This document shows, in pieces, positions 7,495-42,369 of a stretch of DNA of 56,412 nt. The stretch is from an uncultured Sphingomonadales bacterium (lineage in GTDB: Bacteria; Pseudomonadota; Alphaproteobacteria; Sphingomonadales; Sphingomonadaceae): positions 1-56,412 of the forward strand of contig CAILIO010000327.1 in the NCBI GenBank assembly GCA_903834285.1, given 5' to 3'. The position numbers were made by a program, and so were the translations under genes. The notes below the pieces were generated by a model, which did not search any database, had not been told where the DNA came from, and saw only the letters and a program-made list of their open reading frames with translations. The first letter of the stretch is position 1, and each line of letters opens with the position of its first letter.

Positions 7495-8496
7495 ATGAAC
7501 CGCTTCCCCTTCTCCGCCATCGTCGCGCAAGACGAAATGAAGCAGGCCCTGCTGCTGGCCGCTGTCGACCCTGCGATCGGAGGCGTGATGGTCTTCGGCG
7601 ATCGCGGTACCGGAAAATCGACCGCTGCGCGGGCACTTGCCGCGATCCTGCCGCCGATCACCGCGGTGGAAGGCTGCCGCTTCGGCTGTGCGCCGACCGA
7701 TGCGGGGACCTGTCCAGATCCCTGTACATCGAAGAAGACGGCCAAGCGCGCGGTGCCCTTCGTCGACCTGCCGCTGGGCGCGACCGAGGACCGCGTGATC
7801 GGCGCGCTCGATCTCGAACGCGCGCTGCGCTCGGGCGAAAAGCGCTTCGAGCCCGGCCTCCTTGCCAAAGCGCACCGGGGCTTTCTCTATATCGACGAGA
7901 TCAACCTGCTCGAGGATCACTTGGTCAATCTGCTGCTCGATGTTGCGGCTTCGGGCGAGAACCTGGTCGAGCGCGAGGGGCTTTCGGTGCGGCACAAGGC
8001 GAAGTTCGTGCTGATCGGCAGCGGCAATCCTGAAGAAGGCGAATTGAGACCGCAGTTGCTCGACCGGTTCGGGCTTTCGGTCGAAGTGCGCACGCCGCAA
8101 ACGCTCGATGCCCGCGTCGAGATCATGCGCCGCTGCGCATCGCACGAGCGCGATCCCGCTGCCTTTGGCGAGGACTGGGCAGCGGCGGACGCGAAGATCG
8201 TGCGCCGTATCGCGCGCGGTCGCTCGCGCTTGCCGACTGTCGAGACGCCGGACGAAGTGCTCTACGATGCCTCGCGGCTGTGCATGGCCTGCAAGGCCGA
8301 TGGCTTGCGCGGCGAACTGACCGTCATGCGCGCCGCGCGCGCGCAGGCCGCGCTGGAAGGGGCGGATACGGTCAAGCGCAAGCATGTGATTGCGGTCGCC
8401 CCGATGGCGCTGCGCCACCGCCTGCGCCGCGACGTGCTTGACGAGACGGGCTCCACCACCCGCATCGAGCGCGCAGTGGCCGAGGTGTTTGGATGA
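7495..8496 (+). CDS. bchI: Magnesium chelatase ATPase subunit I
   Basis: MNRFPFSAIVAQDEMKQALLLAAVDPAIGGVMVFGDRGTGKSTAARALAAILP; Walker A. Confidence 0.97.
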   Translation: MNRFPFSAIVAQDEMKQALLLAAVDPAIGGVMVFGDRGTGKSTAARALAAILPPITAVEGCRFGCAPTDAGTCPDPCTSKKTAKRAVPFVDLPLGATEDRVIGALDLERALRSGEKRFEPGLLAKAHRGFLYIDEINLLEDHLVNLLLDVAASGENLVEREGLSVRHKAKFVLIGSGNPEEGELRPQLLDRFGLSVEVRTPQTLDARVEIMRRCASHERDPAAFGEDWAAADAKIVRRIARGRSRLPTVETPDEVLYDASRLCMACKADGLRGELTVMRAARAQAALEGADTVKRKHVIAVAPMALRHRLRRDVLDETGSTTRIERAVAEVFG

Positions 8497-10181
8497 CCAC
8501 TCCGCCCGCGTCGCCCGCCGCAGAGGATGCGGCGCTGGCGCTGCGCGCCTTTGCGCTCTGGCCAGCCGGTTTTGGGGGCCTATGGCTGCGCGGCCCCGGC
8601 CCCGCGCGTGATGCGCTGGTGGAGCGGCTGGGCAGCACAGTGCGCCTGAAGCGCATGCCGGCGCATATCGACAGCGAACGCCTGCATGGCGGGATCGACC
8701 TTGCCGCCAGCCTCGCCGCTGGGCGCAGCGTGTTGCGATCCGGCTTTCTGGAGGAAGCGCGCGGCGCGATTGTGCTGGCGCCGCTGGCGGAGCGGATTAC
8801 CGCCTCGCTCGCGGGCAGCGTGGCGCAGGCGCTCGATCATGCGGATACGGCGGAGCGCTTTGGCCTCGTCCTGCTCGACGACGGGGCAGAGCATGACGAA
8901 GTGCCGCCGCTCAGCCTGACCGAGCGCGTGGCGTTTGCGTGCGATCTGGGCAATGCCGCTCCGGCGGGCTTCGATGCGACCGAACTGCCCGCCCCCCTCG
9001 CCTCACCCGCTGAAATCCCGGTCTGCAGCGCAGAGGGGCTGGAGGCGCTTGCTGCCGTCTCGCTTGCGCTAGGGGTCGATTCCGGCCGGGCGCTGCGCTT
9101 CGCCGCGCTGGCCGCCGGTGCCAGCGCGCGGCTGGCCGGGCGGGAGACCGTGCGCGAAAGCGACCTTGCTGCCGCCGCACGGCTGGTGCTCGCCCCGCGC
9201 GCAACACGCCTTCCGCCGCCGCCGCCCGAGGACAACGCCGAACCGCCCCCTCCTCCCCCGCCGCCGCAGGACAGCGATGCCGATACGCCCGGCGATGAGG
9301 AGCAGGAGGACAATGGCAAGCCCGATCCCGATCAGCTGATCGAGGCCGCTGCCGCTGCGATCCCGCCGGGCCTCCTCGAGGCGCTCGCCGCCGGTCGCAC
9401 CCGGCGCGGTGCGGGGAGTGGGGGTGGTGCGCGTCATCTCTCACCGCTGCGGGGCCGCCCGCTGGCGGCACGGCAGGGCCTGCCACGTGGCGGCGCCAGG
9501 CTCGCGCTGATCGACACGCTGCGGGCCGCCGTGCCGTGGCAGGCGCTGCGGCGGGCGGAAGGCGATGCGCTTACGGGCCTGCGCATCATGAAGGACGATG
9601 TGCGCGTCCGCCGGTTCGAGGCGCGCAGCGCTTCGGTCACGATCTTTGCGGTCGATGCCTCGGGCTCGGCGGCTTTCACGCGGCTGGCCGAAGCGAAGGG
9701 CGCGGTCGAGCTGCTGCTCGCGCAGGCCTATGTGAAGCGGACGGAAGTCGCGCTTGTCGCGTTCCGAGGGAGCGAGGCGCAATTGCTGCTGCCGCCCACC
9801 CGCTCGCTGACCCGGGCGCGGCGGGCGCTGAGCGAACTGCCAGGCGGCGGCGGTACCCCGCTCGCAGCTGGACTTTCGATGGTCTGCACCCTCGGCACCG
9901 GCCTCACGCGGCGCGGCTATACGCCGCTGCTGGTGCTGCTGACCGACGGGCGTGGCAATATCGCGCTCGATGGCGGCACCAACCGCGCGACGGCGACCGA
10001 GGATGCCATGAAGGCCGGGCGCGCGATCGCCACGGCAGGGCTTGCCGGGGTGGTGATCGACATTTCGCCCCGCCCCCGCCCCGAAGCCGCCGCCATCGCC
10101 TCTGCCATGCGCGCGCGCTACGTGCCGCTGCCGCAGGCAAGCGCCGCGACGCTCAGCAAGGTGATCGGCGCTCTGACATGA
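8493..10181 (+). CDS. bchD: Magnesium chelatase subunit D
   Basis: Overlaps bchI; Pro-rich/acidic linker PPPPPPPPQDSDADTPGDEEQED; VWA domain TIFAVDASGSAAFTRLAEAKGAVELLLAQAYVKRTEVALVAFRG. Confidence 0.96.
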   Translation: MTTPPASPAAEDAALALRAFALWPAGFGGLWLRGPGPARDALVERLGSTVRLKRMPAHIDSERLHGGIDLAASLAAGRSVLRSGFLEEARGAIVLAPLAERITASLAGSVAQALDHADTAERFGLVLLDDGAEHDEVPPLSLTERVAFACDLGNAAPAGFDATELPAPLASPAEIPVCSAEGLEALAAVSLALGVDSGRALRFAALAAGASARLAGRETVRESDLAAAARLVLAPRATRLPPPPPEDNAEPPPPPPPPQDSDADTPGDEEQEDNGKPDPDQLIEAAAAAIPPGLLEALAAGRTRRGAGSGGGARHLSPLRGRPLAARQGLPRGGARLALIDTLRAAVPWQALRRAEGDALTGLRIMKDDVRVRRFEARSASVTIFAVDASGSAAFTRLAEAKGAVELLLAQAYVKRTEVALVAFRGSEAQLLLPPTRSLTRARRALSELPGGGGTPLAAGLSMVCTLGTGLTRRGYTPLLVLLTDGRGNIALDGGTNRATATEDAMKAGRAIATAGLAGVVIDISPRPRPEAAAIASAMRARYVPLPQASAATLSKVIGALT

Positions 10182-10191
10182 CGACTTTGGC

Positions 10192-11079
10192 ATGAGCAAG
10201 CCGCTTGTCTGGGAAACCGACGGGCGCGATTGGCCGCACCGCGCGGCCAGCCGGTTTGTCACGGCGGGGCCCCTCACATGGCATGTGCAGGAAATGGGCT
10301 TAGAGAATCAGGGCGGGCTGACCGTGGTGCTGCTCCACGGCACGGGCGCTGCCACGCACAGCTGGCGCCATCTGATGCCGCTGCTGGCTGAGGACCACCG
10401 CGTAATCGCGATGGACCTGCCGGGCCACGGATTTACGCGCGGCCGCCCGGCTGGCGGGTTGAAGCTGCCCGGCATGGCTACCGCTGTGGCCGCACTTCTC
10501 GCCAAGCTTGAGGTTCGTCCCGCGAGGCTGATCGGTCATTCGGCCGGCGCTGCCATCGCGCTGCAGATGGTGCGCAGCGGCCTCGATGTGCCCGAGGTCA
10601 CCGGCCTCAGTGCGGCCCTTTCGCCGTTTCCCGGGTTCTTCGCGCCGTTGTTTCAGGGGCTCGCCCGTGCGCTCGTGCTCAATCCGCTGGTGCCGCGTCT
10701 CTTTGCCGCCAGTGCGCGCACTTCGGGCGATACCGGGCGGCTGCTTGTCCGTTCGACCGGTTCGCACATCGATGCCGAAGGCGTGCGGTGCTACGCCATG
10801 CTGCTCGGCAACGCGCTGCATTGCCGCGGCGCGCTGGAAATGATGGCGGGATGGGATCTCGCCAGCCTGCAGCGCGAGCTGCCCAAGGTCGCGGCGCGGG
10901 TGCGCCTGATCCACGGCGCGAAGGACGCTGCCGTACCGACCAGTTCGGTCGAGCAGGCGGTGCGCTTGCTGCCGCAGGGAGAGCTCAGTGTGCTTGCAGG
11001 CCTTGGCCACCTGGCGCACGAAGAGCGGGCGGATCTTGTCGCGGAGGCCATTGCTGCCACTGCGGCGGTCCATGCTTGA
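10192..11079 (+). CDS. bchO: Alpha/beta hydrolase BchO (Mg-chelatase-associated)
   Basis: LVWETDGRDWPHRAASRFVTAGPLTWHVQEMG...VVLLHGTGAATHSWRHLMPLLA; follows bchID. Confidence 0.95.
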   Translation: MSKPLVWETDGRDWPHRAASRFVTAGPLTWHVQEMGLENQGGLTVVLLHGTGAATHSWRHLMPLLAEDHRVIAMDLPGHGFTRGRPAGGLKLPGMATAVAALLAKLEVRPARLIGHSAGAAIALQMVRSGLDVPEVTGLSAALSPFPGFFAPLFQGLARALVLNPLVPRLFAASARTSGDTGRLLVRSTGSHIDAEGVRCYAMLLGNALHCRGALEMMAGWDLASLQRELPKVAARVRLIHGAKDAAVPTSSVEQAVRLLPQGELSVLAGLGHLAHEERADLVAEAIAATAAVHA

Positions 11080-11093
11080 GAAGGAGGCAGTGC

Positions 11094-11231
11094 GTGGCTC
11101 AGAACTTTGGATGGATCGAAATGGTCGTGTTCGGCGGGGTCGCGCTCTCGCTCGGCGTGTGGCAGCTCATCTCGGTCAACCGCGAGATTGCGCGCGACAA
11201 GGCGAAGAAGGACGCTGCGACGAAGGACTGA
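11094..11231 (+). CDS. 45-aa single-TM protein, GTG start
   Basis: MAQNFGWIEMVVFGGVALSLGVWQLISVNREIARDKAKKDAATKD; AAGGAGG at 11081-11087 with 6-nt spacing to GTG. Confidence 0.7.
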   Translation: MAQNFGWIEMVVFGGVALSLGVWQLISVNREIARDKAKKDAATKD

Positions 11232-11235
11232 TCGG

Positions 11236-12375
11236 TCAGCGGCGCGATCTCGGCATCCGGTGCGGGATCAATTGCTGCACGATGGGTGAGCAGAAGCGGT
11301 CGAGCGAAAGCGTTTCCTGCATCGCCACCACCGGCTCGCCATAGAGCCGCGCATGCAGCGTCGAGCGGGTGTAGAAGGGCGAATCCTCCCAGGTCCGCCG
11401 CACCGTGGCATGGCCGCGATCCGCGCGGGTGACCCGTTCCATCTGCCACATCGTGTTGGGCAGCGGCGCGGTCGGCGGCAATTCGGCCTCGTGCGGAATT
11501 CCGGCGCAATCGAAGCGTAGCGCGCTCGCAAAGGTCGAGCCGTCGCGGCGCTTCCCTTCGTAGAACACCGCGACATCCTTGCCGAGGTGCGCGCGCGACC
11601 AGTGCCAGACGCGAAAGCCCTCCTCGAGCGACTCCGCGCCGCGGTTGGAATCGAGGTAGGCGCTGCCCTTCCAGCTGAGCTCCGGCGCCTGCATCTCGAC
11701 CGAAATGCGCGCGCGCGGGGCAAGGCAGTGCCACAGATGCTTGCCCGCCGGGTCGAGCGCGAAGGCCTCGGTGTTGAGCATTTCGGGCCAGACCTTGATC
11801 TGCCCCGACACGCGGCGGCGGAAGGGGTTCAAGATCCGCTTGTCGAGCTCTTCGATGTCGATGATCAGACAGTCCCCCGCCCAGCGCACCGAACTGGGCC
11901 CGATCGCGAACTGGTCCGCCTCGGGCTTCACCGCGTGCTCGCCCCGCTCGGTCATCGTCCAGCGCGCCTTGGGGCCATAGAGCGCGACGTTGAGCGCGCA
12001 GTGATCGAGCGGGTTTCCGCGTCCGGACCGCTTGAAATAGGGTGAGAACACGCTGCCGATAAAGGCGATCAAGGTGAGGCCGTGCTGGCCGTCATCGCTC
12101 AGCGCATCGACATACCACCAGCTGTAGCCGCCCGCCTGCACCGGCGCATCGAAGCGGGGATGCGCATCGCTGTCGCGGCTACCTGGCGCGCGCATCAGCC
12201 GGTCGTCCTCGCCGCGATCGAGCAAGGCCCAGGGATCGGGGGCCAGCGGCGCGGGCGGCAGGGCGCCGTTCATCCGCGCAATGCCCTTCCACAGCGCGGG
12301 CCATTGCTCTGCCGCCTCAGGGCCGCTGTCCTTGAACCGCAGCATACCATCTGCGTGGGTCTCGCCTCGCCACAT
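11236..12375 (-). CDS. crtC: Carotenoid 1,2-hydratase (hydroxyneurosporene synthase)
   Basis: FDAPVQAGGYSWWYVDALSDDGQHGLTLIAFIGSVFSPYFKRSGRGNPLDHCALNVALYG. Confidence 0.95.
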   Translation of the reverse strand: MWRGETHADGMLRFKDSGPEAAEQWPALWKGIARMNGALPPAPLAPDPWALLDRGEDDRLMRAPGSRDSDAHPRFDAPVQAGGYSWWYVDALSDDGQHGLTLIAFIGSVFSPYFKRSGRGNPLDHCALNVALYGPKARWTMTERGEHAVKPEADQFAIGPSSVRWAGDCLIIDIEELDKRILNPFRRRVSGQIKVWPEMLNTEAFALDPAGKHLWHCLAPRARISVEMQAPELSWKGSAYLDSNRGAESLEEGFRVWHWSRAHLGKDVAVFYEGKRRDGSTFASALRFDCAGIPHEAELPPTAPLPNTMWQMERVTRADRGHATVRRTWEDSPFYTRSTLHARLYGEPVVAMQETLSLDRFCSPIVQQLIPHRMPRSRR

Positions 12376-12438
12376 GGTTCAATCTCCCATGCCCCACATG
12401 CGGGGCTTGTGCAGGATGATTGACGCATTGCTCCTAAA

Positions 12439-12456
12439 TGTCCAATGTAATTGACA
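12439..12456. promoter_or_regulatory. PpsR/CrtJ-like operator TGTCCAATGTAATTGACA between crtC and crtF
   Basis: Exact TGT-N12-ACA. Confidence 0.65.
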
Positions 12457-12457
12457 T

Positions 12458-13636
12458 ATGAATATGTCCACCAGACTGGATTTGCCCCAAAGGGTCGGGC
12501 TCAAGGAACGCTGGATCGGCTGGCGCAACCGTCTCTTGATGAGCCCGAAGTTCCAGCAATGGAGCGCCGCCTTCCCGCTCACCCGGCCGATCGTGCGCTC
12601 CCGCGCGCGGCGGGCTTTCGATCTGGTGGCCGGGTTTGCTTATGCTCAGGTGCTAACCGCCTGCGTGGAGAGCGGCTTGCTGGACCTGCTGGCCGAGGGC
12701 GCCTGCGACACGGCAACCGCCGCCAACCGTGCCGGGCTCGGCGTTCCTGCGACCGAGCGCCTGCTGCGCGCTGCCGCCTCGCTGGGCGTCGCCGAATCGC
12801 TCCCGGGCGGGCGCTGGACACTGGGGATGGATGGCGCCGCGCTGCAGTGCAATCCCGGCGCGCGGGCGATGATCCGGCACCACGCGCTGCTCTATACCGA
12901 TCTCGCCAATCCGCTGGCGCTGCTGCGCGCGGACCGCAAGGAACCGACCGCGCTCTCGGAATTCTGGACTTATGCGCGGGCAAGCGCGACCGGCGCCGTC
13001 CCGCCCGGGCGGCAGGGTGATGCCGAAAACGAGCCCGCCGCAGCGGCCTATTCCGCGCTCATGGCCGCCTCGCAGGCGATGGTCAGCGAGCAGTTGGTCG
13101 CGGCCTATAAATTCAGCCGGCACAAGGCGATGCTCGATGTCGGCGGCGGCACAGGTGCCTTCGTCCGTGCGGTGGGCATGGCCGCGCCGGCACTGCGACT
13201 CGGCCTGTTCGATCTGCCCGATGTCGTGGCGGGCGCAGAAACGACACTAGGCCGCGACGCGCTGATCGCGCCACGCCTGACCCTGCACAAGGGCAGCTTC
13301 CTCCACGATCCGCTGCCCACCGGCCATGACCTCATCACGCTCGTGCGAATCCTGCACGATCATGACGACGAACCGGCGCTGCGCATCCTGCGCGCCGTGC
13401 GGGCCGCGCTGCCGCCCGGCGGCACGCTGCTGATCGGCGAGCCGATGGCAGGCGCTGCCGGCGGCGCGGCGATGGGCGATGCCTATTTCGGGCTCTACCT
13501 CTGGGCGATGGGATCGGGGCGCCCACGCCGTCCGGCAGAGCTGGGAGCGATGCTGCGCAGCGCCGGTTTTGCAAGCTGGAAGGCGCTTCCCACGCACCTC
13601 CCGCTGGTCTGCGGCGCGATCGTCGCGCGTGTCTGA
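12458..13636 (+). CDS. crtF: Demethylspheroidene O-methyltransferase
   Basis: WIGWRNRLLMSPKFQQWSAAFPLTRPIVRSRARRAFDLVAGFAYAQVLTACVESGLLDLL; SAM motif MLDVGGGTGAFVRAV. Confidence 0.95.
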   Translation: MNMSTRLDLPQRVGLKERWIGWRNRLLMSPKFQQWSAAFPLTRPIVRSRARRAFDLVAGFAYAQVLTACVESGLLDLLAEGACDTATAANRAGLGVPATERLLRAAASLGVAESLPGGRWTLGMDGAALQCNPGARAMIRHHALLYTDLANPLALLRADRKEPTALSEFWTYARASATGAVPPGRQGDAENEPAAAAYSALMAASQAMVSEQLVAAYKFSRHKAMLDVGGGTGAFVRAVGMAAPALRLGLFDLPDVVAGAETTLGRDALIAPRLTLHKGSFLHDPLPTGHDLITLVRILHDHDDEPALRILRAVRAALPPGGTLLIGEPMAGAAGGAAMGDAYFGLYLWAMGSGRPRRPAELGAMLRSAGFASWKALPTHLPLVCGAIVARV

Positions 13637-41603: not shown

Positions 41604-42082
41604 GCCTGGTTCACGATCACGAACAGACGATGCCCAAGGGCGCCCTTACGGCGGCGCTCATGCTGGTGGTCACGGCGCTGGCGCTCACCACTTTGGTCAA
41701 GGTCGGCGTGCTGAGCCGCGAAGCGGTGCCTGCCATCGCCCGCACCGAAGCCCATGTCGCCCCGGCCCAGATGCGCCAACTCAGCTTCACCGATCGCGGT
41801 GACGGCGCGGTGGTGGTACGCGATATGACGACCGGCGAGACCGTGCGCGTCCTCGTGGACGGCGTGCCGGGCAACGGCTTCGTGCGCGGCGTCATGCGCG
41901 GCATGGCGCGCGAGCGGCATATCCGCGGCGTCGGCATGGCCCCGCCCTTCACGCTCACGCTGTGGAAGAACGGTACGCTCAGCCTTGAGGACAAGAGCAC
42001 GGGCCGCGCAATCGAACTCGGCTCGTTCGGGCCCGACAACCGCGCCGCCTTTGCCGCGCTGCTGCCCGGGGGCGCCGCCTGA
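41600..42082 (+). CDS. puhC: Photosynthetic complex assembly protein PuhC
   Basis: Position; N-terminal TM; RQLSFTDRGDGAVVVRDMTTGETVRVL...GFVRGVMRGMARERHIRG. Confidence 0.93.
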   Translation: MSLVHDHEQTMPKGALTAALMLVVTALALTTLVKVGVLSREAVPAIARTEAHVAPAQMRQLSFTDRGDGAVVVRDMTTGETVRVLVDGVPGNGFVRGVMRGMARERHIRGVGMAPPFTLTLWKNGTLSLEDKSTGRAIELGSFGPDNRAAFAALLPGGAA

Positions 42083-42369
42083 TGTCTGCCAGCCAGTTCG
42101 ATACCCCCTGCCGCATCGAAATCGAGCAGACGCCGGAGCACTTCCACGCGCATGTGCGCCTCGCGGGGGATATCGAGCTTCAACCCGGAGACCGGGTGAA
42201 AGTGCACGGCGCACCGATCCGCGTTGATTTCGGTCAAAGCCTCGCCATCGACCGGATGGCAACGGTAACGCGGGCGGGTCCGCTGGTGCGGGCGTGGATC
42301 AAGCTGGCCGCCTATTTCGACCTTACCGAACTCTACGAAGTCAGCTTCACGCCCGGGAGACCGTCATGA
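42082..42369 (+). CDS. 95-aa conserved-type ORF between puhC and acsF
   Basis: [89 protein letters not shown]; overlaps both neighbours. Confidence 0.88.

Follow-up and report, generated by a model that had tools for sequence, protein, structure and literature searches.

A conserved small membrane-protein gene associated with the photosynthesis gene cluster of proteobacterial anoxygenic phototrophs

The window, i.e., the whole 56,412-nucleotide stretch of DNA analysed here, carries part of a photosynthesis gene cluster. On its plus strand, the genes for the Mg-chelatase subunits I and D, bchI (7498–8496, above the TIGR02030 cut-off) and bchD (8493–10181, above the NF009943 cut-off), are followed by bchO (10192–11079, above the TIGR03056 cut-off). 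Directly 3′ of bchO, on the same strand, an ORF with a GTG start and a TGA stop (11094–11231) encodes a predicted single-pass membrane protein of 45 amino acids; its assignment draws on the translation, the position of homologues, dN/dS and an AlphaFold2 model. The bchO TGA occupies 11077–11079, leaving 14 nt before the GTG at 11094, and a Shine-Dalgarno sequence, AAGGAGG, is read from the sequence at 11081–11087 (plus strand) with a 6-nt spacer to that GTG. The convergent crtC lies on the minus strand (11236–12375), with 4 nt between the end of the small-gene TGA (11231) and the crtC stop (first base 11236). Its NF045922 match of 279.8 bits is below the curated cut-off of 400; the genes in this position in relatives are annotated as carotenoid 1,2-hydratase. 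The original prediction had given the same translation and the same distances to the bchO stop, the Shine-Dalgarno sequence and the crtC stop, and these details proved correct. Using a model too crude to be informative, no terminator- or promoter-like site was detected between bchI and the small gene.

A DUF3422 gene (PF11902, 6164–7438) adjoins bchI on the other side. Genes of this type are also found between bchO and crtI in other alphaproteobacterial clusters (L120, L121, L147, L165, L168 and L251), and the DUF3422 gene is possibly a second unexplained gene of the cluster. The interval between crtC and crtF (12375–12458) is without crtD; in most sphingomonad relatives, a crtI/crtD-type desaturase gene occupies this place. 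The window genome carries crtI-family genes on other contigs, C156 and C361, and its crtD may thus lie outside the cluster.

An ORF of 45 codons alone proves nothing in GC-rich DNA, and the window contains many open frames that long. The combination of AAGGAGG, a spacer of 4–9 nt and RTG occurs five times in the window against an expectation of 0.68. The case for a gene therefore rests on comparison and conservation. With the single sequence as query, Sphingomonadaceae homologues were recovered at E-values down to 1e-11, and the strong matches are located between bchO and a convergent crtC. In most phototrophic Sphingomonadaceae the homologue stands directly 3′ of bchO and faces crtC; in several relatives there is a 4-nt overlap between its start and the bchO stop, and the starts in relatives are preceded by Shine-Dalgarno-like sequences. 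Among 36 codon-aligned members, pN is below 0.35 in 69 pairs, and pS exceeds it in each of these; dN/dS is about 0.1–0.6 among the closest pairs. The value is 0.22 between the window gene and that of Novosphingobium jiangmenense, the nearest named relative in the codon set. This pattern of substitution indicates that the small gene is under purifying selection. Shortness, GC richness, a GTG start and the abundance of frames of this size in the window would also be expected of an ORF that arose by chance or of conserved non-coding DNA, and such a reading is already contradicted by the comparative data: the homologues keep the frame at the same place in three classes, synonymous divergence exceeds non-synonymous divergence in every close pair, and the start sites have Shine-Dalgarno-like sequences. 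We consider it next to negligible, and the comparison indicates that the ORF at 11094–11231 is a real, conserved gene. Orthologues downstream of bchO, for which a synteny search had been proposed, were thus found. The original expectation that automated ORF callers would miss the gene does not hold for at least one relative, as the homologue of Novosphingobium capsulatum (about 60 amino acids, ATG start, 4-nt overlap with bchO) is annotated as WP_062786511.1, a “hypothetical protein” with no assigned function.

The encoded protein is predicted to be almost entirely helical. AlphaFold2, supplied with 36 homologues, models one helix over residues 5–44 with a mean pLDDT of 92, and the best 19-residue hydropathy stretch covers residues 10–28 (mean 1.9). 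Taken together, hydropathy and the model helix place the transmembrane (TM) segment at about residues 8–29 (codons at 11115–11180, plus strand), the exact borders being approximate. Summed over 47 homologues, K/R number 12 and D/E 43 before the TM segment, against 279 K/R and 197 D/E in the 20 residues that follow it. By the positive-inside rule, these counts predict an N-out/C-in topology, in which the N-terminus, short and acidic, is external and the charged helix at the C-terminus (about residues 30–45; codons at 11181–11228, plus strand) is cytoplasmic. Hence, the one TM helix and charged cytoplasmic tail of the original prediction agree with the model, the hydropathy and the charge counts. 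The family profile, A4, features an acidic residue where the TM segment begins, (W/Y)(Q/E) at its cytoplasmic end and a basic segment following it. The window protein matches this profile with an E-value of 2.8e-18 in its own genome, a value to be read with the window sequence itself being a row of the profile; independent support for its membership comes from the homologues of the single-sequence search. An apparent conserved C-terminal motif, the RHPVGEHRLDDR/RHPEGQH tail, was rejected, being the antisense of the conserved MLP(F/Y)RMPR end of CrtC. Tails of the RHPVGEHRLDDR type occur where the small-gene frame extends into crtC and thus give no evidence of a functional motif.

The presence of the small gene follows anoxygenic phototrophy, and the family is confined to phototrophs. 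In the Sphingomonadaceae sample (151 genomes, 30 with bchO and 121 without), 26 of the 30 bchO-positive genomes carry the small gene. It is directly 3′ of bchO in 23 of these 30, and in three more it has another position within the cluster: in G001 and G097 it follows pufC, and in G021 it lies about 6 kb past bchO. No match was found in the bchO-positive G074, G142, G108 and G130. None of the 121 bchO-negative genomes has a credible match; the few weak ones (E 0.003–0.1) are mostly long unrelated frames. A similar picture was obtained from the alphaproteobacterial sample (385 genomes, 27 with bchO and 358 without), where the small gene is present in 22 of the 27 bchO-positive genomes. Among the others, a contig end falls just past crtB in G642, the sequence is masked at the expected place in G340, the assembly is fragmented in G403, and no match was found in G554 and G635. 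Credible matches number zero among the 358 bchO-negative genomes, three weak ones having failed on inspection. Fisher’s exact test gives P < 1e-24 in both samples, a figure that describes rather than tests the association, as the genomes are not independent and phylogeny was uncorrected. The broad idea of a photosynthesis-linked membrane microprotein is borne out by this very strong co-occurrence with bchO and by the retention of the small gene in the cluster.

In a sample of 399 Pseudomonadota genomes, strong matches were seen in cluster context only. A phototroph of betaproteobacterial type (G1000, class inferred) has the order crtC, small gene, crtB, and gammaproteobacterial Nevskia MAGs carry the small gene as well. 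Weak matches in ten bchO-negative genomes (G094, G106, G118, G132, G399, G493, G512, G810, G689 and G816) were rejected as long unrelated frames or as lying in genomes with no cluster genes, and a recurrent weak match, SDCRSFEPTT...FWHM, was removed as the antisense of bchX. Local checks revealed no small gene next to crtC or tspO in the plasmid clusters of Roseobacter litoralis and Sulfitobacter guttiformis, nor beside crtC in Thiocapsa, Ectothiorhodospira and Methylobacterium loci; for the latter these are local results rather than whole-genome absences. The lack of the small gene in the Rhodobacterales plasmid clusters and some others suggests that it is not universally required. Separately, Roseobacter litoralis has an annotated gene for a 57-amino-acid hypothetical protein (WP_158308178.1; L175, 222–395) that lies between bchX and bchY.

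The surroundings of the small gene differ among lineages. In lineages other than sphingomonads, the genes usually run bchI-bchD-bchO-crtI-crtB-(tspO)-small gene, with crtC convergent to the last of these; the small gene is mostly directly 3′ of crtB, sometimes overlapping its end. In sphingomonads, crtI and crtB are located outside the photosynthesis cluster (PMC12654162), and their departure would have brought the small gene next to bchO. Read in this way, the gene orders indicate that adjacency to bchO, seen in sphingomonads and in Brevundimonas-type clusters, is a derived rather than an ancestral state, in which case linkage to Mg-chelatase is not an ancestral feature. With some exceptions, the small gene lies inside the cluster, follows bchO, crtB or tspO and converges on crtC, and it usually remains inside when the cluster is rearranged. 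The small gene and crtC often overlap at their ends, by up to about 54 nt (L004, L011 and L205). However, the small gene is not tied to crtC, which is about 500 kb off in G097 and on another contig in G001 with the small gene still in the cluster. It is directly behind tspO in G451, G681, G400, G409 and G332; in G332, about 215 kb separate the pair from bchO, and nothing else in the 15 kb read was recognised as a cluster gene. Synteny thus points to no single stable partner gene.

We consider it very probable, from distribution and gene context, that the small protein has a photosynthesis-specific accessory role. What it accessorizes was weighed among several readings. It could be an anchor or accessory subunit that brings CrtB, CrtI or CrtC/CrtD/CrtF to the photosynthetic membrane, as its usual place outside the sphingomonads, directly behind or even overlapping crtB and facing crtC, would suggest, and as would suit the presence of crtC in 51 of the 53 bchO-positive genomes. 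We regard this as unlikely, because sphingomonads keep the small gene inside the cluster with crtI and crtB away from it, bchO-negative sphingomonads are without it, crtC is far from it or on another contig in G001, G097, G400, G409 and G332, and several genomes with no small-gene match contain crtC. A dependence on crtC or TspO was set aside, as both are near-universal among the bchO-positive genomes (TspO in 52 of 53) and hence do not discriminate. The same near-universality, often with several copies and also where the small gene is absent, weakens the idea of a TspO partner or modulator in porphyrin/carotenoid signalling. The neighbour in most lineages is crtB or bchO, and Roseobacter and Sulfitobacter have tspO at the site with no small gene; such a partnership is a rather remote prospect, even with the tspO-adjacent genomes and the isolated pair of G332 in its favour and with TspO described as a negative regulator of crt genes in Rhodobacter (PMC10604819).

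A minor or stoichiometric TM subunit of RC-LH1, acting like PufX, protein-U or protein W, would fit the size, the single-pass topology, the specificity to phototrophs and the position behind pufC in two genomes. This reading is quite improbable. The orientation of LH1 alpha/beta and PufX is opposite to the N-out orientation predicted here. The lack of any PDB chain match, with the parent complexes of about 83 distinct RC M-chains included, is weak evidence against it, the small gene not being established in any solved species. As for the reaction-centre chains themselves, the G681 PufM is not the Rhodopseudomonas palustris chain, its best PDB match being 9m8m, above 6z5r. More remote still is a membrane tether for Mg-chelatase (BchI/BchD/BchH) or BchO. 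The short gap or 4-nt overlap behind bchO in sphingomonads does imply coupled expression there. However, this adjacency is lineage-specific, with crtI-crtB-(tspO) in between or bchO at a distance elsewhere, and stable linkage to bchI, bchD or bchH across lineages was not found beyond the sphingomonads and Brevundimonas-type clusters. Moreover, some clusters with bchI and bchD are without the small gene where it was looked for, and Mg-chelatase thus apparently does not require the small protein. The Mg-chelatase tether put forward in the original prediction is therefore not specifically supported, given the derived adjacency to bchO and the crtB and tspO neighbours elsewhere.

The small gene is independent of crtI and crtB in sphingomonads and of bchO in other lineages. 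This points to a partner that all phototrophs share, and an accessory or assembly role is preferred for this reason. Under the preferred reading, the small protein would be made together with pigment genes (bchIDO in the window genome, crtIB-tspO elsewhere) and placed N-out/C-in in the inner membrane. Its charged cytoplasmic helix may then offer a docking site to a peripheral pigment enzyme or to a photosynthetic complex still being formed. The protein, rather than being a catalytic enzyme, would thus serve as an accessory or assembly factor that links the supply of pigment to the biogenesis of reaction centre and LH1. Docking or assembly through the cytoplasmic helix is, tentatively, the best explanation that context and predicted topology suggest. 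The conservation of the small gene would also fit a regulator.

The photosynthesis gene cluster is usually regarded as a nearly complete parts list, and in phototrophic sphingomonads low carbon strongly induces it (PMC7762795). A small gene that is conserved, tracks phototrophy, is covered by neither a Pfam nor an NCBIfam model and is unnamed in the literature searched is a candidate for a missing accessory factor of this cluster. The phototroph-only distribution suggests a helper protein overlooked by pigment research. It is possible, though we would put it cautiously, that the small protein is an unnamed, phototrophy-specific assembly factor or complex subunit of alpha-, beta- and gammaproteobacterial phototrophs, which couples pigment synthesis to complex assembly and has been passed over in a cluster that is among the best studied in bacteria. 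No description of the small gene was found in a search limited to open-licence papers. Published cluster maps contain unlabelled hypothetical genes (PMC3176799; PMC7762795), and an earlier, unnamed sighting is thus possible.

No credible Pfam, NCBIfam or PDB match was obtained for the family; the small protein resembles small accessory proteins of photosynthetic membranes, yet it is in no family tested by sequence. Its nearest annotated counterpart is the Novosphingobium capsulatum homologue mentioned above, which occupies the same bchO-crtC interval. CcmD (PF04995), of the heme-export complex, shares with the small protein its size, a single TM helix and a charged C-terminal end, whereas the small gene is in no ccm operon and is restricted to phototrophs. 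Identity with CcmD was rejected, as there is no gathering-level PF04995 match (one of the 36 members reaches E 0.0086, and the window protein has no match). Like the small protein, PufX, protein-U/PufY and protein W are bitopic membrane proteins of very small size, and their occurrence is specific to anoxygenic phototrophs. In contrast to them, the small protein matches no PDB chain, is predicted to be N-out/C-in, and is encoded mostly with pigment genes rather than with puf. A 95-amino-acid ORF without a Pfam or NCBIfam model (42082–42369) lies between puhC and acsF and overlaps both, and G554, G635 and G681 have homologues of it in the corresponding position; by its position, it is a candidate for BciE (PMC3176799; PMC7319587), the gene for which is directly upstream of acsF (PMC3176799). 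The small gene itself was rejected as bciE, since it is this other ORF that stands before acsF. Nevertheless, BciE, which serves the alphaproteobacterial O2-dependent cyclase AcsF as an auxiliary subunit (also PMC7319587), is likewise a small protein encoded inside the cluster and was long annotated as hypothetical.
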